Of a stretch of 8,600 bases of DNA, positions 258-8,256 are shown piece after piece. The notes beneath the pieces were generated by a model that saw nothing but the letters and a program-made list of their open reading frames with translations, made no database searches and was not told where the DNA came from. Within the stretch, counting starts at the first letter, position 1. Each line of letters begins with the position of its first letter. Where the stretch lies: contig PLZT01000082.1 of NCBI GenBank assembly GCA_003152255.1, positions 1 through 8,600 on the forward strand, given 5' to 3'. A program made the position numbers and the translations under genes. This stretch comes from Methylocystaceae bacterium. Its GTDB lineage: Bacteria; Pseudomonadota; Alphaproteobacteria; Rhizobiales; Beijerinckiaceae.

Positions 258-300
258 ATGAACATCTTTTCCACAAGCTCGCTTGGCCACGATGGGCTGC
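258..300 (+). pseudogene. RHE_PE00001-family (DUF1612) gene, 5' fragment cut by the transposon
   Basis: ATG 258 opens a frame reading MNIFSTSSLGHDGL, which stops making sense at base 300, where the transposon begins. Joining base 300 to base 7178 (one copy of the GCTGC duplication kept) continues without a shift into QAPLEAASDALARLDER, the N-terminal part of the RHE_PE00001-family product encoded to the right of the element. The reconstructed gene has 374 codons including the stop. This fragment holds the true start codon and its promoter. The insertion separates them from the other 96% of the gene by almost 7 kb. Confidence 0.85.
296..300 (+). repeat. Target-site duplication, left copy (GCTGC)
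   Basis: GCTGC directly precedes the left terminal repeat and recurs immediately after the right terminal repeat at 7173-7177. Five bases is the duplication length made by Mu, Tn7 and Tn5053/Tn402-type DDE transposases. Its perfect state, and the frame restored when one copy is removed, establish that the element inserted as one unit. Confidence 0.92.
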
Positions 301-324
301 TGTCGGTTTTGCTTAAGGACTTCA
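301..324 (+). repeat. Left terminal inverted repeat
   Basis: The element begins TGTCGGTTTTG followed by CTTAAGGACTTCA. Against the right end read inward, positions 1-11, 13-16 and 20-24 are identical, so 20 of 24 bases match. The TGT...ACA termini are typical of the Mu/Tn7/Tn5053 transposase superfamily. Confidence 0.9.
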
Positions 325-328
325 CTTT

Positions 329-375
329 GAACAGCTAAGTCAAAAATCACCTATCGGATTTTGGCTTAGCTGTTC
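329..375. repeat. 17-bp inverted repeat in the left end of the transposon
   Basis: GAACAGCTAAGTCAAAA (329-345) and TTTTGGCTTAGCTGTTC (359-375) are reverse complements except at one position (340/364), with a 13-base loop. The right arm and loop also contain TCGGATTTTGGCTTA, which resembles TCGGTTTTGCTTA of the terminal repeat with two single-base insertions. No T tract follows on either strand, so a rho-independent terminator for the leftward recombinase gene is unlikely. An inner transposase-binding repeat or a recombinase binding site fits better. A 10-bp palindrome, TTGATATCAA, follows at 397-406. Confidence 0.6.
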
Positions 376-421
376 AATATCAGCTCATTCTCACCATTGA
401 TATCAAACACCTTTCCGACGC

Positions 422-1522
422 CTATAATCCCGCCGCTTTGGTAAGATTGACGCGGAATCGATCGCGTTTCCTCTGATATCGGCGGGTCATCTCAGCACTG
501 GCGTGGCCGAGGTGCTTTTGGACGTGGGCTTCCTCGATTTGCGCCGAGCTGGCGAGGCCGGCGCGCAGCGAATGGCCGGCGAAGGCGCGCTTGCGCTCTC
601 CTTCGGGGAGATCACCGCGCACGCCCGCCTTAAGCACGCATTTTTGCACGAGCCTTGCGACATGCTTGTCGGTAAGCCGCTCGGCGGCGACGCCGGCGTT
701 CTTCTTGGCGATGCGGCGGAACAGCGGGCCGTGCGTGATACGGCCAAGCCGCATCCAGGTCTCCAGCAAAGCGACAGGGCAGGTGTCGGGGCGGGAGCCG
801 CGCCCAATCTCCACTTCGCGCCAGCCCGTCTTGCCGTTGATCGTCAGCAGGACGCCGCCGTCGAGAATTTCGATCCAGCCGGTTCCGTCCTCGGTCTGCT
901 CGGGGCCGCGATCGAGGCCGGTGATTTCGGAGCGGCGGAGCCCTCCGGCGAAGCCGATCGCCAAAATGGCGCGGTCGCGCAAGCCGCGCAGATCCATGTC
1001 GAGGACGCCGAGCATGGCGAGCAGTTCGTCGGCGAAGATCGCCTCCTTCTGAACGGGAGGCCTACCGTGCTGGCGGCGGATTCCTGCGAGGACCGTCGAT
1101 ATATGGCGGTCTCGAGAGTCTAGCGGGTCGCCCAGCTGGCGGTAATTCCAGCAAATCCCGGAAAGGCGGCGCTCCAGCGTGGCGACGCTTGTCGGCTCCG
1201 CGCCGTGTCCAGCGCCGTCGGCGGAGGCGGCGAGATAGAGTCCGACCGTCTGCGGGTCGGGTGGCAGTTGTGGCAGACCCTGCCGGCGAAGCCAGGAGGA
1301 AAAATGTCGCCAATCGGAGTCGTAAGCGCGCTGGGTGTTGTTGGCCCGGGCGGCGCGGGCGTAGTTTTTAGCGGTCTCGGCGAGCGCGGCGAGGTGATCG
1401 TTTTGTGGGGCGCGGGGAGAGGGCAAAACGCCTTTGTCGGCATTTGTTCCGTTTGCGTTCTCATTTTCCCGACGACTCGAAGGGCTGTTCGTGGGGCTGT
1501 TTGAGGCAATTTCGTCCGACAC
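422..1522 (-). CDS. Tyrosine-type site-specific recombinase (integrase family)
   Basis: The product cuts and rejoins DNA at specific sites through a phosphotyrosine intermediate. From the start chosen here it has 366 residues; numbers below count from an alternative TTG at 1579 that would add 19. An N-terminal core-binding (SAM-like) domain covers about 60-170 (NTQRAYDSDWRHFSSW). The catalytic domain covers about 178-375 and shows the full set: R215 in GGLRRSE, K250 in NGKTG, H336 and R339 in HSLRAG, H359 in LGHAS, and nucleophile Y368 in RRYQR. I prefer GTG 1522 because GGAA lies 8 bases upstream and because a 25-bp palindrome then falls in the leader instead of the coding region. In Tn5053-type elements this position is held by a serine resolvase, so resolution of cointegrates is the likely job. 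Integration of circular intermediates is an alternative. Confidence 0.9.
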   Translation of the reverse strand: MSDEIASNSPTNSPSSRRENENANGTNADKGVLPSPRAPQNDHLAALAETAKNYARAARANNTQRAYDSDWRHFSSWLRRQGLPQLPPDPQTVGLYLAASADGAGHGAEPTSVATLERRLSGICWNYRQLGDPLDSRDRHISTVLAGIRRQHGRPPVQKEAIFADELLAMLGVLDMDLRGLRDRAILAIGFAGGLRRSEITGLDRGPEQTEDGTGWIEILDGGVLLTINGKTGWREVEIGRGSRPDTCPVALLETWMRLGRITHGPLFRRIAKKNAGVAAERLTDKHVARLVQKCVLKAGVRGDLPEGERKRAFAGHSLRAGLASSAQIEEAHVQKHLGHASAEMTRRYQRKRDRFRVNLTKAAGL

Positions 1523-1541
1523 TGCAGGGGTTCCGAATCGC

Positions 1542-1566
1542 GTCCGATAAACTAACGTTATCGGAC
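1542..1566. promoter_or_regulatory. Perfect 9-7-9 palindrome upstream of the recombinase gene; putative core site or operator
   Basis: GTCCGATAA (1542-1550) and TTATCGGAC (1558-1566) are exact reverse complements with a 7-base spacer, ACTAACG. Arms of 9-13 bp around a 6-8 bp spacer are the usual layout of a tyrosine-recombinase core site. The palindrome lies between the divergent recombinase and DUF1403 genes. On the leftward strand it overlaps a possible promoter (TTGTCT, 16 bases, GATAAC), so it could also autoregulate the recombinase. A further GTCCGA half-site occurs at 1514-1519, and a related TATCGGA lies at 353-359 inside the left-end hairpin. Confidence 0.55.
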
Positions 1567-1644
1567 ATTCCTTTCGCAAGACAAGCGCGGCGGTTTTCTC
1601 CGAATAAATAGTGACAAAGCGCCGTCTTGCGCTACGATTCCGTC

Positions 1645-2700
1645 ATGCTCCGATTCGACTCCGATGCGCTTTCCGATGCCGAGATCGCGCCCGTCGCGGC
1701 GGCGGCGCGATCCGCGCGCAAAAAATCGGCGTCGGAATCAATCACGTTAAATTTCCCGGTGGAACGGGGCTTTCCACGCTGGGCGCGGATCGGCGAAAAT
1801 GCTGTCCGCGCCGGCGATCCTGTCTTCTTCGCCGGAGCTGGGCTCGCTTTGTTGGATCATTTTCTCGCCGCCTCGCCGCCCTTCGCCGGCGCGCTGCGCC
1901 AGCGCCTCGCTCTGCGAGCCGCCGCCGCCTGCGTGAAAATGGCGCGGCTGCGAGAAGACGCCGCCGGCCTGCGCGACGCCGAACATCTGGCTCCGGGCGC
2001 CGGGACGACGCAGACCAGCCTCGCCGGGCGCGTTCATCGCCTGTGGCGCCTCTTCGCGTCCCGCCCAATGCGGCTCGACGCCTCGACCTTGCGAATCGCG
2101 GCTGATCTTGTTGGATTGACGGACGCCACGAGTTTCGACGGCCTCGCCGGCGCCTTGCGGGACATCGTGGCCGGCGCCGAGCATCCGCTCGCGGCGGCCG
2201 TGGGCGCGAGCGCCGCGGCGATGAAACTGCTTACGGACGCGCCACCGGTCGACGTCGAGATTTTCGCGCTCTGGCTGTCGGACCTCGCCTTGGCGCAACG
2301 ACTCGGCTGGGACGCGCCGGTTCCGCTGCTCGCCACGGCGATTGCGCATGCGTCTTTGCGTCGCGGCCCAAGCGGCAAGCGTCCGCGTCCGGCCGATCCG
2401 GATTGGGTCGACGCTGCGGCCGGCGCTTACGCGATGGCCGCCCAAGAGGCTTACGCTCTCGCCGGTGAGTTGGCGCGCGCTGGCGAAAAACTTCTCGCCG
2501 CCCAGCCCAAATTGCGGGCCAAGAGCGCCGGGCGGGTCATCGAATTGTTGCTCTCGGACGATGCCGTGTCGCCTGCGCGAGCCGCGAAGGCCGCGCGGCT
2601 ATCCGATCGCGCCGCCCGCCGCTTGTTCGATCGGCTCATCGAGCTTGGAGCCGTGCGCGAACTCTCCGGCCGCCCGAATTTTCGGCTCTATGGCTTGTGA
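1645..2700 (+). CDS. DUF1403 family protein
   Basis: The 351-residue product is recognised as DUF1403 by long characteristic stretches, among them GFPRWARIGENAV, DPVFFAGAGLALLD, VHRLWRLFASRP, VDVEIFALWLSDLALAQRLGW and PLLATAIAHASLRRGP. The biochemical function of the family is unknown to me. The first 280 residues are helical and alanine-rich without membrane segments or a signal peptide. The last 60 form a winged-helix-like unit: a helix (RVIELLLS), a helix-turn-helix (SPARAAKAARLSDRAARRLFDRLIELG) and a wing (RELSGRPNFRLY), so DNA or protein contact is likely. ATG 1645 is preferred to a TTG at 1627 because the family-like sequence MLRFDSDALSDAEIAPVAAA begins there, although no good ribosome binding site precedes it. 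It is followed after 9 bases by scpB, and the two are probably one transcript. The scpB partner suggests a role in a condensin-like or segregation-related complex; that is inference. Confidence 0.85.
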   Translation: MLRFDSDALSDAEIAPVAAAARSARKKSASESITLNFPVERGFPRWARIGENAVRAGDPVFFAGAGLALLDHFLAASPPFAGALRQRLALRAAAACVKMARLREDAAGLRDAEHLAPGAGTTQTSLAGRVHRLWRLFASRPMRLDASTLRIAADLVGLTDATSFDGLAGALRDIVAGAEHPLAAAVGASAAAMKLLTDAPPVDVEIFALWLSDLALAQRLGWDAPVPLLATAIAHASLRRGPSGKRPRPADPDWVDAAAGAYAMAAQEAYALAGELARAGEKLLAAQPKLRAKSAGRVIELLLSDDAVSPARAAKAARLSDRAARRLFDRLIELGAVRELSGRPNFRLYGL

Positions 2701-2709
2701 GGCTTAGCG

Positions 2710-3438
2710 ATGGGCCGTCCCAAAAAACGCGAACAGGATGCGCTGTTCGATAGAGACCTCGCCGATGTTCCGGGCGGCGCACGCTGGCGTGAATGGATGG
2801 GCCGCGTCGAGGCGGCGATCTTCGCCGCGCGCGATCCCGTGCCCCGCGAAGCGCTGGCGAAACTCGTCGGACAGAGTTGCAAACTCGACGATCTTATCGC
2901 CGACATTGTCGACGAACTTCGCGCACGCCCTTACGATCTCGTCTTCGTCGCCGGCGGCTATCAGCTGCGCACCAAACCGCGCTTTTCGGCCGCGATCCGG
3001 GCGGCGAATGCTGGCGAGCTTCGCGACGTGGGCCTTCCCGAACTGACGCCGACCGAACTTCTGGCGGTGACTGCGATCGCTTATCTGCAACCCGCCACCC
3101 GCGCGGAAATCTCGCGGCTCGCCGGCAAGGAAATCAGCCGCGACGTCATCGGCCGCCTGAAGCGTCTCGATCTCATCGACGGGACCTTGCGCGCGCCGGA
3201 ACCTGGCGCGCCCTTCGCCTATGTCACGACAAAAAAGTTCCTGGAGGTTTTTGGGCTGGCGACGCTGCGCGACCTTCCCGACATCGAACGGCTTGAAGAC
3301 GAAGGTTTGTTGCGGCGGCCTCAATCGGACATCGATCTCGACGGCGCCTTGGGGCTTGTCGAAGACGACGGCCAAGTTTTCGAAGGGGACAGTGAGTTCG
3401 AGGGCGCCGAGTTCGAAGACACGGCCGATGGCGTATAG
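2710..3438 (+). CDS. scpB: ScpB homologue (SMC-Scp complex subunit family), transposon-borne
   Basis: Classical ScpB is a dimer of two winged-helix domains that binds the kleisin ScpA and regulates the SMC condensin in chromosome segregation. This 242-residue protein has both units. The first covers about 30-95 (VEAAIFAARDPVPREALAKL and GGYQLRTKPRFSAAIR). The second covers about 110-195 (LTPTELLAVTAIAYLQPATR, AEISRLAGKEISRDVIGRLK and FAYVTTKKFLEVFGLATLRDLP). Residues 200-242 form a strongly acidic tail. The start is ATG 2710 with TGAGG (2698-2702, overlapping the DUF1403 stop) 7 bases upstream, so translation is probably coupled to the upstream gene. No scpA or smc is nearby: the protein must recruit host ScpA/SMC, use DUF1403 as partner, or have a different task. 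It is not expected to be the host's housekeeping copy. Confidence 0.9.
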   Translation: MGRPKKREQDALFDRDLADVPGGARWREWMGRVEAAIFAARDPVPREALAKLVGQSCKLDDLIADIVDELRARPYDLVFVAGGYQLRTKPRFSAAIRAANAGELRDVGLPELTPTELLAVTAIAYLQPATRAEISRLAGKEISRDVIGRLKRLDLIDGTLRAPEPGAPFAYVTTKKFLEVFGLATLRDLPDIERLEDEGLLRRPQSDIDLDGALGLVEDDGQVFEGDSEFEGAEFEDTADGV

Positions 3439-3479
3439 GAGCCCGAGTCGCCGCGCATCCGGAGCTCCCGACGCGCACC

Positions 3480-3536
3480 GACGGCGCCATAAGCCGCCAG
3501 CAATGAATGCAATTTGGCGGTGCCCGCGCCGTCTTT
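3480..3536 (+). terminator. Two-tier hairpin with short T run after scpB; possible terminator
   Basis: GACGGCGC (3480-3487) pairs with GCGCCGTC (3526-3533), and inside it CCGCCA (3494-3499) pairs with TGGCGG (3515-3520). TTT follows directly at 3534-3536. It lies 42 bases after the scpB stop codon. The T run is short and the inner loop long, so it is a plausible rather than a strong rho-independent terminator. Confidence 0.4.
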
Positions 3537-3557
3537 AAGATGGCGACTCCTTGGTTT

Positions 3558-3575
3558 CCACTCGTTTTCGAGTGG
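3558..3575. repeat. Perfect 7-bp hairpin with TTTT loop
   Basis: CCACTCG (3558-3564) and CGAGTGG (3569-3575) enclose TTTT. There is no T tract on either side in either orientation, so it is not an ordinary terminator. It may help to separate the converging scpB and tniQ transcripts, or be part of a longer structured RNA. Confidence 0.4.
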
Positions 3576-3718
3576 CGCCCGCGACATCAGTCGGCGCAGC
3601 AACGGTTGTGTGCTGGCGGTAATCCCGCCCGCCGCTACGATCGTCCGTCGCCAGGCGGCGATCACGGCGTCGGGCTCCACGCAAAGATGTATATCAAATC
3701 GTTGGTCGAAGCAGTTTC

Positions 3719-4492
3719 CTACGCGCGTGACGCAACGGATTCGCTCGACTGTCGACAGTCTCGTGAATTTCTCATTGCTTGGGGCTCTTGCAGAGAGGGT
3801 AAGGCGATAATCCGCTTGATCAGCGTGCTTTTCTCCAAAAAGCCCTTCGCCGCTTCGAGCCGGACCAGATCGTCGATCAGTTCCGCTGCCTTGCGCGTCG
3901 CCGGCGCGAGTTTAGGCGCCTTGGCTTGGCGGAGATCGAATCCGCAGACAGCACATCGGTGTTGAGAAACGAGCGCACGTTGATTGAAGGGCACGAGGCC
4001 CTGGCGGCAAGCGGGACAACGGTCGAGCAGACCCCGTCGATGTCGCCGGCAGGTCATGACGCTGGCGCGGCGCCACTCCTGTCGAAAATATGGCGTCTCG
4101 TCTTCGGCGAGGCACACAGGGCAGAACTGCTGCCACGTCGCATGTTTTTGGTCCGCTTGGGCTCGGCGGAGCGGCAGGAGCAGCGGCCGCCATTTCTTGG
4201 CGCCGATCGTCATGGCCATGATCCTATCGCGGTCGACGCCGGTCTGATGATGCAAGAGGTTCAGCACGGTTCCCGGCAAGGCGAGGTCGAGCCGCGCCGA
4301 CCAGGCGCCGGAGCCGAACCCGAGCTCTTCCCCGAAATGTCGCGGCGACAGGCCGTGAGCGAGAGCGAGCCGATGCAGCCAGCTCGACAAAAGTTCGTCA
4401 CGCAGGGGCGTCACCTTCACCGGCCAACGTTCGGGGAAAAGTGTCGCGAGACGCGGCTGCACTTCGATCGCGGGACCGGCGTGTCCGCGCAT
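3719..4492 (-). CDS. tniQ: TniQ family transposition protein
   Basis: TniQ proteins work with TniA and TniB in Tn5053- and Tn7-type transposition and, as TnsD/TniQ, can choose the target site. The 257-residue product opens with the typical TniQ segment (LFPERWPVKVTPLRDELLSS, WLHRLALAHGLSPRHF; about 19-53). Zinc-binding pairs follow: C124/C127 (CPVC), C148 and H151 (CRRH), C159/C162 (CPAC) and C180/C183 (CAVC). It begins 2 bases after the tniB stop, as the last gene of the tniABQ operon. It is short beside the roughly 400 residues of Tn5053 TniQ, and its last 40 residues look unlike a folded domain, so a small frameshift near the T5 run in the minus strand around 3840, or natural truncation, is possible. 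The family assignment is secure; the true C-terminus is not. Confidence 0.87.
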   Translation of the reverse strand: MRGHAGPAIEVQPRLATLFPERWPVKVTPLRDELLSSWLHRLALAHGLSPRHFGEELGFGSGAWSARLDLALPGTVLNLLHHQTGVDRDRIMAMTIGAKKWRPLLLPLRRAQADQKHATWQQFCPVCLAEDETPYFRQEWRRASVMTCRRHRRGLLDRCPACRQGLVPFNQRALVSQHRCAVCGFDLRQAKAPKLAPATRKAAELIDDLVRLEAAKGFLEKSTLIKRIIALPSLQEPQAMRNSRDCRQSSESVASRA

Positions 4493-4494
4493 GC

Positions 4495-5373
4495 TTAAAG
4501 CAGCTCTTGCCGCAGCGCCGATCGCCGGCGCTCAGTGAGAGGCGTGTAATCGAGCGCGTCAAGCGATCGCGGCGTGATCCGTTCGGCGCCGTCACGGACC
4601 GCCAGCACGGCGGCCTCGGCGAGAATGCGCACCGTTTCGCCGATCAAGCCCTCGGACATGGAGAACACGCGGCGGGCGATGGCTTCTTGCGACAAATCGG
4701 ACGGATGCGCGAGCGGCAAGGCCGCCTCCAACGTGTCGAGCAGCGTCAGATAGGGCTCGCCGTAGCGCCAGCGCGGCACGGGCAGGGCCTGGAACCGGCT
4801 CGCCATTTCCGGCGTGGCGTTGACGTGATCATAGACGGCGACTTCGCCGATCAGCACCGGCGAGACGTCATATTCCCGGCCGAGCCGCCTGAGGAATGCG
4901 AAAATCGCCTCGATGTCGCGCGCGCGGCCGCGTAGCGCATTGTGGAATTCGTCGAAGATCAGGATGCGGGGGCGCAGCGCCTTGAGCAAGGCGTCGACCT
5001 GCTCCGCCAGCCGAGAGACCGAGCGAAGCCCACTCGCCGGCGCACCCAACCCGGCAATCACGCTCGCATAGAAATGCGCCAGGCCCGTTCCCTCCCGTGT
5101 CTGCACGATCCAGGCCTTGCGTTGGCTCACGGCTTGAAGGTGGTGCAGGACGAAGCGCTCGGCGATCATCGTCTTGCCGTTGGCGTAGGGACCAACCAGC
5201 ATCAGCCCGTCCGTGCGCAGCATCGTCGGCCGCTCCAGCAATTCCTCGAGGCGCCGATGCGCGGCGAGCGCGGCGTCCGTGCCGATCCAGCGCGGGGCGC
5301 GGATGAAGGCGATGCGCTCCGCCTCCGGCGCGGCCAAGATGGCTCGCACATGTTCGAAAAGGTGCTCGGTCAC
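4495..5373 (-). CDS. tniB: TniB family AAA+ ATPase, transposition regulator
   Basis: TniB is the ATP-dependent partner of the transposase, analogous to MuB and TnsC: it binds target DNA and activates TniA. The 292-residue product is close to the usual length. It carries a family-typical N-terminal segment (RAPRWIGTDAALAAHRRLEE, about 25-44), Walker A GPYANGKT (61-68) and Walker B ILIFDEFHN (137-145, with D141 and E142). An arginine-rich sensor region follows (MASRFQALPVPRW). Start is GTG 5373, 6 bases after the tniA stop codon. The stop lies 2 bases ahead of the tniQ ATG, so the three genes form a tight operon read leftward. No inactivating change is visible. Confidence 0.93.
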   Translation of the reverse strand: MTEHLFEHVRAILAAPEAERIAFIRAPRWIGTDAALAAHRRLEELLERPTMLRTDGLMLVGPYANGKTMIAERFVLHHLQAVSQRKAWIVQTREGTGLAHFYASVIAGLGAPASGLRSVSRLAEQVDALLKALRPRILIFDEFHNALRGRARDIEAIFAFLRRLGREYDVSPVLIGEVAVYDHVNATPEMASRFQALPVPRWRYGEPYLTLLDTLEAALPLAHPSDLSQEAIARRVFSMSEGLIGETVRILAEAAVLAVRDGAERITPRSLDALDYTPLTERRRSALRQELL

Positions 5374-5379
5374 GTCCCG

Positions 5380-7062
5380 TCACCAGCTTTCTATCGGCAA
5401 CAATCGTTTGGCTCGCACGGGATGGGGCGCCGGCGGCTCGACAACCGGCTCCATGATCTGGTGAGGCTTTGGAGCGTGCGCCGCCTTTGTCGAACGAACC
5501 TTGTCGCGCAGTTCGGCTTTCGAAGAGCGCCGCGCCAGGGTTTTGGTCGCGCGCGCCGCCGTCACGATGGCGGCGATTTCGCGAGTGATCGCGATCTTTT
5601 CGGTAGTTGTGCGGGATGCAGCCGCCCTTTGTTCGCGACGATCGCGCCGATGCTCCCACAAAGTGAGCGGCGTCGTGATGCCGTCGCGGCGCGTCGCGAC
5701 CCGAAACGCAGAGTCGCCAGGATCGCGGACGTAAATACGGCTGATGTCGCGCGGATCGTATCTGATCTCGAGTGTGCCGATGCGGTCGCGCTCCGGGACG
5801 AGAACGCCAAGCCAAGGCGAGTAATAATGTAGGGCGAACAACTCGACGCCCTGCGGCGTCAGCCGCCGCTGCACGCCCGGCAGAAAATTCAGCAGGACCG
5901 CCTCGGAAGAATCGACGGCTTCCGACTGGTCGCCGACATGAGCGCGCCATTCGTCGAGAGGAACTTTCAAAGTCTTCTCGTTCATCTGATTGTTGTGATC
6001 GATGATGGCGAGCGCGACACAGCGTTCGAGATCGGCGAAAGTCAGACAGGCGCGCTTTTCGGACGGATAGCCGTCGCGATCTTTGACGGAGCGACCGGTG
6101 GCGCCGTCATGCCTCCCGATCACGCCATTGAGCTTGCCCAGCAGGCGCTCGACCACTCCGCCCTCGTGCACGCAGCCTCGATTGCGAAGCCGGATCGACA
6201 CGCCATATTCGGCACAGCCTCTTTGGAACGCCGCTCCGCGAAACTCCTTCGCCGAATCCGTCACGATTTGCTTTGGCCGTCCGAGCGTCGGCCAAGCGTG
6301 CGCGACGCCGCGCGATTCGAGCCACGCTTCCTTGGGACAGATCGCGTGGGCGAGGCACAGCGCCACCGAAAGCGTGCTCGGGGCTTCGAGCGTCAGGCAG
6401 AAACCCAGAATGCAGCGAGAGAACACATCGACGAGGATCGTGAGGTAAGCACGGCCGACAAAGGCGCCAGCGCCATCGATAATCTCGACAAATTGGATGT
6501 CGGTCGGCGTGTGGTCGATTTGCGTCACCGCGAGCGGCCGGGGCGCGCTGATATAGCCGGGCCGGGGTTTTAGCCGGCGCAAATGGTTTGGGTTGGCCGA
6601 GCGTTGCTTGGCTATTTCCTCGGGCGAGAACAAGGAGGCGGCCCGCGCGCGGATCGCGACATAAGAAGGCGGCCGCAACCCAGCCGCCTCGCAGCGCGCC
6701 CTGATCTCGCCGACCACCGGGGCCAGAGGCGGCGCCTCGAGGATCAACCATTGCTCCCGCAGTGTCGCGGCGATGATCGCCTCGGCGTCGTCATCGAGCC
6801 GCTTGCGACGGGCGGCGCCTTTGCGGGACAGCAACGATGAAACCGTCCGCTCGCGTCGATATCGCGCGAGCAACGTATAAATCCGCCGTGTCGACAGCCG
6901 CAATTCTCCTGCCGCGCGGGCCACCGCCACCCTGCGCGGTCCCGCCGCGTCCAGCACCTTGTCCAGTTCGCGGGCGACCCGCCTGGCGCTCAGCCAATTC
7001 ACATCGTCGGCTGGACGCACCGCCGCCGCTCCGCGGGGGATGCGCGAGTTGAAGTGCCGCAA
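5380..7062 (-). CDS. tniA: TniA family DDE transposase (Mu transposase type)
   Basis: TniA binds the transposon ends and joins them to target DNA. The 560-residue product has an N-terminal helix-turn-helix region (about 25-90, with LSTRRIYTLLARY). The RNase H-like integrase domain (about 172-375) has D183 in TQIDHTPTD, D269 in IVTDSAKEF and E305 in GGVVERLLG, an exact D,D-35-E spacing. A Mu-type C-terminal beta-barrel covers about 390-455 (LTPQGVELFALHYYSPWL, GTLEIRYDPRDISRIYV), and a basic tail of about 100 residues likely contacts TniB. The start at TTG 7062 has GGGAA upstream. A GTG at 7020 preceded by GGAG is equally possible and would remove 14 residues. The gene starts 110 bases inside the right terminal repeat, as in Tn5053. 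All catalytic residues are present, so it is probably functional. Confidence 0.94.
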   Translation of the reverse strand: MRHFNSRIPRGAAAVRPADDVNWLSARRVARELDKVLDAAGPRRVAVARAAGELRLSTRRIYTLLARYRRERTVSSLLSRKGAARRKRLDDDAEAIIAATLREQWLILEAPPLAPVVGEIRARCEAAGLRPPSYVAIRARAASLFSPEEIAKQRSANPNHLRRLKPRPGYISAPRPLAVTQIDHTPTDIQFVEIIDGAGAFVGRAYLTILVDVFSRCILGFCLTLEAPSTLSVALCLAHAICPKEAWLESRGVAHAWPTLGRPKQIVTDSAKEFRGAAFQRGCAEYGVSIRLRNRGCVHEGGVVERLLGKLNGVIGRHDGATGRSVKDRDGYPSEKRACLTFADLERCVALAIIDHNNQMNEKTLKVPLDEWRAHVGDQSEAVDSSEAVLLNFLPGVQRRLTPQGVELFALHYYSPWLGVLVPERDRIGTLEIRYDPRDISRIYVRDPGDSAFRVATRRDGITTPLTLWEHRRDRREQRAAASRTTTEKIAITREIAAIVTAARATKTLARRSSKAELRDKVRSTKAAHAPKPHQIMEPVVEPPAPHPVRAKRLLPIESW

Positions 7063-7148
7063 GAGATCGTTCCCGGGTTGAAGTTTTTAGGCAAAAGAGC
7101 GGCCCGAATACCGGGCGAAGCTGAAGAAATAGTTACGTTCCAGCTTGT
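7063..7148 (-). promoter_or_regulatory. Right-end inner region: tniA leader and likely transposase-binding repeats
   Basis: Between the right terminal repeat and tniA lie CAGCTT-GTTG-AAGCTG (7141-7156, a 6-bp hairpin running into the terminal repeat) and GCCCG-AATAC-CGGGC (7102-7116). On the minus strand there is also TTTTGCCTAA (7087-7096), close to TTTTGCTTAA of the left terminal repeat. The tniA promoter must lie here; a -10-like TAACTAT is visible on the minus strand near 7130, but no good -35. Several TniA-binding repeats per end are usual in this superfamily. Confidence 0.4.
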
Positions 7149-7172
7149 TGAAGCTGTTAATCAAAACCGACA
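7149..7172 (-). repeat. Right terminal inverted repeat
   Basis: The plus strand ends CAAAACCGACA (7162-7172), the exact reverse complement of the first 11 bases of the left repeat. Read inward, 20 of 24 bases match the left end, with differences at positions 12 and 17-19. GCTGC follows directly. Confidence 0.9.
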
Positions 7173-7177
7173 GCTGC
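7173..7177 (+). repeat. Target-site duplication, right copy (GCTGC)
   Basis: This is an identical copy of 296-300, immediately outside the right terminal repeat. In the uninterrupted gene a single copy would supply the last base of a Gly codon, a Leu codon and the first base of a Gln codon, in the same frame on both sides. Confidence 0.92.
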
Positions 7178-8256
7178 AGGCCCCTCTGGAGGCGGCGTCC
7201 GACGCGCTGGCGCGCCTGGATGAGCGTCTGCGCGTGAGCCCTGTCGCGGAAGCCTTCAGGCTGCGTGCCCATTTCCACGATGCCTGCGCCGCGCTGTGGC
7301 GGGCGGGAGAGTTCGTGCAGGTCGAGGATCTCGTTCTGCATGACGCCGGCATGGACGCGCGTTCGCCCACCCATGAGCTGGTGCGCGCGCATGCGGTCTT
7401 GCTCGCGCGTCGGCGGATCGCCGCCCGGCAACCCAACTGGGCGTTGACGCCGTCCGGTCTGAGGGCTCTGCGCGGCTCCTGGAGCATCAGCGATGCGCGC
7501 GCCTACGAGAATGAGGATGTCGCACCCCCCGATCGCGACGGCGAGGATGGGCCGGACGTCGAGCCGCTGGACGAGGAACCCGCGGCGTCGGGCGAGTTCG
7601 ACGAGATCGACGCGCTGCTGGCGCGGACCGCCAAGGTCACGCAATCCGCTGGAGCGTTTCCCGCGCCGCGAGAAAACTTGGGATTAGTCTACGACGAGGA
7701 TTGGGACGAACAAGCGCGGCTCTCCGAATGGCGCCAGGCGGTTGAGCAAACCCGCGCCTTGCCGCCGGTGATGGCGGCGGGCCTCGCTTTCGACGCTTGG
7801 GAGGTCATTGATCCCTTGCAGCATAGCGCCTGGCTTGGTTAGTTGCTCATCGCCGCCCTATTGCGAGGGCGCGGCAAGACGCGCCATCATCTCGCGGCGC
7901 TGCACGCCGGCTTGCGTCGCGCTAAATATCGCCATTCTCGTCGGCCAGATGCGTCGAGTCGGCTGATCGGTTTCCCGCAGGCGATCGAGGCGATGGCGAA
8001 CGCCGATATGAAAGAGCTCGACAGATTGACCTTGGCGCGCGAGCTGTTGCTTAGGAAATGCCAGGGCAAGAGAGGGAATTCGAAATTGCCGCGCCTCGTC
8101 GAGCTGTGTTTGACCTCGCCCATCGTTAGCGTTCCCTTCGCGGCCAAGGAGCTTGGGGTGTCGCAACAGGCGGCGACCATTATGATCGGCGAGCTTTCGT
8201 CGAACCTTCGCGAGTTGACGGGACGCGGGCGCTATCGGGCATGGGCGGTAATGTGA
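7173..8256 (+). pseudogene. RHE_PE00001-family (DUF1612) gene, 3' fragment, with internal amber stop
   Basis: This is the main part of the gene begun at 258. It shows the family's N-terminal signature (ASDALARLDERLRVSP, FVQVEDLVLHDAGMD, SPTHELVRAHAVLLARRRIA), an acidic variable middle, and a C-terminal winged-helix ending RELTGRGRYRAW. The function of the family is not established; the C-terminus suggests DNA binding. Two lesions are visible: loss of the first 14 codons to the transposon, and TAG at 7840-7842 (codon 236 of the rebuilt gene). The frame continues past the TAG into sequence that is clearly family-like (ALLRGRGKTRHHLAALHAGL, ELDRLTLARELLLRK) to TGA 8254-8256. A frame entering from inside the transposon (GTG 7054) runs through the junction in register, so a hybrid product with about 40 foreign residues is formally possible, still ended by the TAG. 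Confidence 0.88.

Follow-up and report, generated by a model that had tools for sequence, protein, structure and literature searches.

Tn7 homes to glmS, in a fixed orientation. Transposons of the Tn5053/Tn402 family carry tniA-tniB-tniQ between TGT...ACA ends, generate a 5-bp target duplication and possess a serine resolvase, TniR; such transposons are said, in work of Minakhina from 1999, to hunt res sites. For those branches of Tn7-like transposons that lack tnsA and carry a resolvase, replicative transposition has been inferred in the main text of a survey (Benler 2021, PMC8649781). Here, we describe a 6,872 bp TniABQ transposon at positions 301-7172 of an 8,600-nucleotide stretch from a Methylocystaceae bacterium (contig PLZT01000082.1), the whole of which is referred to as the window, in which it interrupts a gene of the RHE_PE00001 family. 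We consider it likely that this element is one apparently decayed copy of a Tn7-like TniABQ family of Hyphomicrobiales, which would home to the 5' part of RHE_PE00001, transpose replicatively and carry a resolution module built around a tyrosine recombinase.

Results

The element starts with TGTCGGTTTTG and closes with the reverse complement of TGTCGGTTTTG at 7172, and is bordered on both sides by GCTGC, so that the TGT...ACA repeats and 5-bp duplication of Tn7-like elements are exact in the window. Among 147 listed inverted-repeat pairs the terminal pair ranked first (arms 296-324 and 7149-7177, 29 nt, 83% complementary), and the few longer pairs had arms that were less alike. This ranking, together with the homology to a related copy in Methylocapsa acidiphila (L011 in our numbering of loci) that ends at the same places, ruled out chance repeats as an account of the ends. 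A preceding sequence-only reading, which had proposed a complete transposon with exact ends and a 5-bp duplication, was thereby borne out.

Removal of positions 301-7177 joined 258-300 to 7178 in frame and yielded MNIFSTSSLGHDGLQAPLEAASDALARLDER, the N-terminus of a RHE_PE00001-family gene, and the joined frame was broken when both copies of GCTGC were kept. In the NCBIfam profile NF040876 (family cut-off 250 bits), which the first part of the window target gene alone matched with 258.7 bits, the gene part after the insertion begins at profile position 15. Intact and unoccupied RHE_PE00001 genes on two Methylosinus plasmids (L087 and L088), both located near rep genes, possess the same 15-codon N-terminus as the joined window gene, and the joined sequence is 75% identical over 80 residues to the gene of Methylosinus OB3b. 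The N-terminal residues were present in the relatives searched, and none lacking them naturally was met. As near-identical empty-site DNA was sought in plasmids and the target gene found no match there, the empty site rests on these protein-level relatives. The in-frame junction proposed in the sequence-only reading therefore holds, but not the open frame up to 8256, which is split by a TAG at 7840-7842.

In order to define the landing site across the family, genomes were scanned with eight TniA proteins, which gave 76 loci, and seven annotated plasmid loci were added. Before counting, L012 and L024 (the same as L003 and L006) and 12 loci with fewer than 60 bases beyond the end were dropped, leaving 69; the end-repeat matrix had been seeded with ten ends, taken from the window and seven of the counted loci. 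The tniA-side end was positioned 1-25 nt before LARLDER-like codons of a RHE_PE00001 gene in 50 of the 69 loci (44 of 62 without the annotated plasmids), representing 48 distinct 60-nt flanks in a single orientation; the hosts of these relatives include many soil bacteria. A RHE gene divergent from tniA was mapped in 48 of these 50, the other two (L043 and L063, one strain) retaining a short remnant only. L086, a false match of the search pattern, is not included in the 50, and neither is L006, whose scored end is not beside the gene and whose second end copy at 5493 is. The offsets (39 at 6-12 nt, 10 at 21-25 nt and one at 1 nt) rule out a single exact insertion base. Strict frame-keeping was likewise ruled out, the 51 pattern matches being distributed over frames 0 (25), 2 (18, one of them false) and 1 (8). 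The far-offset class, with the window included, grouped on the TniA tree, requiring 5 changes compared with 9.4 in shuffles, none of 500 of which was as low.

Of 16 end pairs examined by eye, all but L011 and L035 (14 pairs) had a left flank that read as a matching N-terminus, and removal of 5 bases restored a continuous N-terminus in L018, L021, L025 and both Rhizobium altiplani pairs, among others. It is the matching residues that count here, since in GC-rich DNA other frames are often open too and openness of the joined frame is weak evidence. A 5-bp duplication was exact in 3 of the 16 pairs and had at most one mismatch in 8, other lengths from 3 to 9 occurring in at most 3 pairs. The 92 family ends contained on average 2.5 copies of CGATTTCA per 160 bp, compared with 0.11 in shuffles, one copy lying within the terminal repeat itself; in the window copy, candidate transposase-binding repeats amount to one inverted repeat at the left end only.

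Two tniA-side ends (L056 at 1520 and L072 at 4115) adjoin the apparent left end of another element, as if stacked at one landing site. On an Aquibium plasmid (L091, 7866-14731), tniABQ is present as two tandem sets that share their protein accessions and are followed by scpB and DUF1403. Annotated defence-like genes (SIR2, N-6 methylases, multiubiquitin/ThiF sets, AbiEi and ATPase/exonuclease pairs) lie beyond the target gene in L003, L006, L008, L009 and L010.

Another type of element, about 5 kb long (L014, L021, L022, L026, L038, L039, L078 and probably L020, in which the left end was not found), contains an additional RHE_PE00001 gene instead of the integrase-DUF1403-scpB module. All six loci of this type with a usable flank (L014, L020, L021, L022, L039 and L078) nevertheless represent insertions into RHE_PE00001. 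Targeting thus seems to do without the element's integrase, DUF1403 and scpB, barring an action in trans, and the likely selector would be either TniQ or the RHE_PE00001 protein.

The nearest relative of the window element, L011, has a TniA that is 81-82% identical and shares 75% identity over 5.4 kb and 70% over 1.1 kb. Matches in blastn covered window positions 296-1384, 1533-1658 and 1886-7181 and nothing outside, the similarity ending at 296 and 7181; a fourth, small match was one end matching the other end. L011 is located in other DNA, outside RHE_PE00001, and is flanked by GCAGC and GCTGC. In Rhizobium altiplani, a 6,681-bp element with tniABQ, scpB, DUF1403 and integrase is bordered by three different sequences on the right and by two on the left. 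The contigs concerned are possibly copies of one collapsed assembly repeat, so that it is the differing flanks and not the perfect identity that provide evidence, and two of the end pairs were put together across contigs by inference. The limits of the L011 homology and the differing flanks indicate that the six genes move as one unit, as the sequence-only reading had assumed. At E <= 1e-100, TniA was found in at least 3 of 297 genomes from the order of R. altiplani (that species included), a lower bound with up to four candidates per genome scored, and the family seems sparse in that order.

Relative to L011, whose TniQ has 343 residues, the tniQ gene of the window shifts frame near 3782. This frameshift and the TAG that interrupts the target gene make the window copy appear decayed, old or immobile; a sequencing error could be the source of either change. 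A TAG in the W-L-G stretch of RHE_PE00001 also occurs in Methylocapsa acidiphila (L097, 1648-1650), but three codons earlier than in the window, for which reason a conserved stop (recoding) was rejected and the two are read as separate decay. An 87-bp piece of a Methylocystis heyeri plasmid (L005, 8001-8087), lying near defence genes and within no annotated gene, is 94% identical to window positions 3831-3917 in tniQ and is a possible remnant. The family-wide target, the palindrome described below and the decay (tniQ frameshift and in-frame TAG) were all absent from the sequence-only reading.

In many elements integrase, DUF1403 and scpB are situated on the far side of tniQ. The left end was located in 14 elements; the integrase gene is 102-123 bp from it in 10 of them and 689-1593 bp in the other four. 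The catalytic residues R215, K250, H336-R339, H359 and Y368 were invariant in 20 integrases (the integrase frames of L029, L049 and L053, which a stop interrupts within the matched region, were left out of the alignment). Tyrosine-recombinase sites consist of inverted arms around an asymmetric spacer of 6-8 bp, and a palindrome of this kind, of the type GTCCGATAA-N7-TTATCGGAC with a 7-bp spacer, was detected upstream of DUF1403. A strict form, whose pattern was written after the palindromes had first been seen, was present in 17 of 18 distinct integrase/DUF1403 pairs. It occurred 27 times in 106 loci (1.6 Mb), once per locus and always 79-395 bases upstream of DUF1403, corresponding to 20 distinct cores after merging seven loci (contigs of the one R. 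altiplani element) and one duplicate. The arms change together (GTCCGATAA/TTATCGGAC, GAACGATAA/TTATCGTTC and GTCCGGTAA/TTACCGGAC), and in L017 and L035 they differ from each other by one base. Best palindromes scored 6-14, compared with averages of 5-6 in shuffles (60 per region); the convincing point is that the same arms keep recurring.

A RHE_PE00001-family gene lies 180 bases after repC on R. johnstonii pRL11. In Rhizobium etli this gene has been proposed to be essential, as its mutation is lethal according to a passage in PMC9022086 (citing Landeta 2011). Among 51 occupied genes (the 50 and L006), the frame is open for more than 320 residues in 43, in two of them up to the contig end; one more is shortened by a contig end and seven are broken. 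Counted by hand, 15 of 17 frame-2 insertions have an ATG or GTG 40 nt inside the element and in frame with the target gene, eight frame-0 insertions have a GTG 12 nt inside, and most of the remaining genes would need a start within the gene. The occupied gene may stay functional.

The DUF1403 and RHE_PE00001 proteins are related (probability 81%, E 1.2e-5), and a Fic-like fold plus HTH is predicted for both. HxFxxGNxR, the catalytic motif of the Fic family, was found in none of 19 DUF1403 and none of 28 RHE_PE00001 alignment rows, and Pfam Fic gave no match at E <= 1 in three proteins.

The six genes of the element fill positions 422-7062 (Table 1) and include all three of a TniA/TnsB-type transposase, an AAA protein TniB and TniQ. 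The recombinase is a Phage_integrase protein and not the serine resolvase TniR of Tn5053/Tn402. The target gene is followed by a GTP cyclohydrolase I gene that is truncated by the window end.

Table 1. Position of the transposon, its genes and its target within the window.
Feature	Position	Strand	Basis and remarks
Target RHE_PE00001-family gene, first 14 codons (ATG 258), left of insertion	258..300	+	N-terminus length as in L087, L088
Left GCTGC, 5-bp target duplication	296..300	.	Sequence
Left terminal inverted repeat TGTCGGTTTTGCTTAAGGACTTCA	301..324	+	Inverted-repeat listing
Subterminal inverted repeat TTGAACAGCTAAGTCAAAA / TTTTGGCTTAGCTGTTCAA, possible transposase binding sites	327..377	.	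Inverted-repeat listing
Tyrosine recombinase (Phage_integrase, PF00589)	422..1522	-	Pfam; possible GTG start 1522, open frame to 1579; catalytic R, K, HxxR, H, Y present
Palindrome GTCCGATAA-ACTAACG-TTATCGGAC, proposed recombination core site	1542..1566	.	Palindrome comparison
DUF1403 protein (PF07183)	1645..2700	+	Pfam; weak C-terminal HTH_13; predicted Fic-like fold plus HTH
Divergent ScpB-like protein (PF04079)	2710..3438	+	Pfam; under TIGR00281 cut-off
tniQ (PF06527)	3719..4492	-	Pfam; frameshifted near 3782; homology in another frame to about 3468
tniB (PF05621, AAA)	4495..5373	-	Pfam
tniA, DDE-type transposase (rve, Mu-transpos_C)	5380..7062	-	Pfam
Right terminal inverted repeat, TGTCGGTTTTGATTAACAGCTTCA in inverse orientation	7149..7172	-	Inverted-repeat listing
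Right GCTGC, 5-bp target duplication	7173..7177	.	Sequence
Rest of target RHE_PE00001-family gene (DUF1612 + HTH_13)	7178..8256	+	Pfam, NF040876; in-frame TAG 7840-7842

Discussion

The mechanism that we propose for this family would proceed as follows. TniA, a DDE transposase activated by TniB, would join the TGT...ACA ends to the target with a 5-bp duplication, the ends and duplication being visible in the DNA and the chemistry being taken from the protein families. TniQ would most likely recognize the 5' part of RHE_PE00001 and fix both region and orientation, a role suggested by the small element type, which hits the same gene without integrase, DUF1403 and scpB; the specificity itself emerges from the comparison of loci. 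Transposition should be replicative and form a cointegrate, because no TnsA-like gene was seen among the six genes (the Pfam scan revealed neither TnsA nor TnsE, and no search aimed at TnsA was made). The cointegrate would then be resolved at GTCCGATAA-N7-TTATCGGAC by the tyrosine recombinase, assisted by DUF1403 and ScpB as accessory partners that bind DNA; the gene set, the catalytic residues and the site are observed, and from these we infer the resolution and the partner roles. Beyond the insertion the frame of the target gene often remains open, and in some cases the element end would provide the start codon.

Several observations weigh against this interpretation. The window offset of 34 nt lies outside the 1-25 nt range of the others, and CGATTTCA is not found in the window ends. 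Nineteen of the 69 loci have no RHE codons at the scored end: five lack a good end repeat (L037, L075 and L084-L086), L056 and L072 are the stacked ends described above, L006 has its second end copy beside RHE, L066, L071 and L076 border a partial RHE gene, L055 and L061 are 0.4-0.5 kb away from one, and six (L011, L029, L032, L035, L057 and L070) sit elsewhere. Half of the 16 end pairs show no clean 5-bp duplication, and L008 has an 8-bp match. L032 has no palindrome of the strict form, and the L017, L025, L032, L035 and L049 regions do not beat their best shuffle. The module with its palindrome, and without tniABQ, also occurs beside repABC/repC on two Methylocystis rosea plasmids (L001 and L002). 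Transposition and recombination themselves, moreover, are deduced from sequence comparison.

The six insertions elsewhere, among which is the closest relative of the window element, and the deviating window offset would all be expected if an ordinary TniABQ transposon had met RHE_PE00001 by chance and carried integrase, DUF1403 and scpB as passive cargo. At the family level, this is contradicted by the 48 distinct flanks that adjoin the same codons in one orientation, and the module and palindrome recur near the far end, which makes a chance hit very improbable to us. Frequent adjacency, as well as the second RHE_PE00001 gene inside the small type, could also mean that RHE_PE00001 is a gene of the element, that the tniA-side repeat is internal and that no targeting takes place. 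However, the terminal repeat and duplication lie in between, most left flanks supply a matching N-terminus, unoccupied RHE_PE00001 genes have no tni gene annotated nearby, and the R. altiplani element has a copy elsewhere; we give this explanation hardly any credence.

As the module is found beside repABC without tniABQ, it may also act in plasmid maintenance, and it could be a dimer-resolution module of repABC plasmids that was captured by the transposon and serves the plasmid more than cointegrates. The M. rosea plasmids favour such a view, as does a Pseudosulfitobacter plasmid in which module and palindrome adjoin repC, yet the position of the integrase close to the left end in most elements is that expected of transposition machinery. 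We regard this as the less probable but most serious alternative, and both roles could hold. For the window locus, a plasmid-backbone reading of integrase, DUF1403 and scpB was rejected. No case of these genes at the same place without tniABQ was met in the data searched, and in M. rosea the tni-less module adjoins repC and is not inside RHE_PE00001. The Pseudosulfitobacter stretch (L089, 8851-16564) contains tniAB, scpB, DUF1403 with the palindrome and an integrase, with no RHE_PE00001 annotated in it, and is possibly a different landing site beside repABC. Instead of TniQ, the selector might be a Fic-fold/HTH protein, either one encoded by the element (DUF1403 or the RHE copy) or the RHE_PE00001 protein of the resident gene, bound at that gene. 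The relatedness and shared predicted fold of the two proteins point in this direction, and each of the two complete element types carries one of them; the L011 TniQ, moreover, is of a size (343 aa) at which the main text of Faure 2023 (PMC10293859) leaves the need for a partner open. On the other hand, DUF1403 belongs to a module that also lives without tniABQ, and we put this forward as a suggestion that is rather unlikely. In equally speculative terms, the family may home into the start of a repABC-linked, proposed-essential gene and carry a Fic-fold/HTH relative of its product (DUF1403 or a second RHE_PE00001) as selector or stand-in regulator, with the solo ScpB as an architectural partner of the tyrosine resolvase.

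Homing of the TniABQ family to the 5' end of RHE_PE00001 would represent a landing site for Tn7-like transposons that we did not find described in the literature searched, in which RHE_PE00001 appeared in PMC9022086 only. It offers a testable case of how TniQ picks its target and of how an element survives insertion into a proposed-essential gene. A role is suggested as well for DUF1403 and for the solo ScpB that accompanies a tyrosine recombinase with its site, two gene families of rhizobial plasmids that have lacked an explanation; no paper on DUF1403 was found in a search of open-access main texts, and DUF1612 and ScpB are unmentioned in the main text of two Tn7-like surveys (PMC8649781 and PMC10293859). 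For annotation, it implies that DUF1403-scpB-integrase blocks can be parts of transposons.

With Tn5053/Tn402 the family has tniABQ, TGT...ACA ends and the 5-bp duplication in common, and its TniA shares about 34% identity, over 83%, with the TniA of pPC9, which is linked to an integron. It differs in that TniR is replaced by a tyrosine recombinase accompanied by DUF1403 and ScpB, and apparently in its target, which is RHE_PE00001 in 50 of 69 relatives as against the res sites of Tn5053/Tn402. Like Tn7 and other TnsD-targeted elements, it inserts in one orientation at a conserved gene, such that the end bearing the transposase gene adjoins the target, but TnsA and TnsE were not seen among the six genes and insertion occurs inside the 5' coding end, not beyond the gene. 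With the tnsA-less clade 2/3 Tn7-like transposons it shares the predicted replicative route and a resolvase as core component, whereas ScpB, DUF1403 and DUF1612 go without mention in the main text of the survey that treats them (PMC8649781). Tn6022 with TnsF, as presented in the main text of PMC10293859, is also Tn7-like, inserts inside a coding gene (comM) and has a partner related to tyrosine recombinases; in contrast, TnsA and TnsE were not seen in the present element, and its integrase keeps all catalytic residues and has a palindrome of its own. A site-specific recombinase linked to repABC, finally, is also described for R. etli in a section of PMC10194956, namely RinQ.

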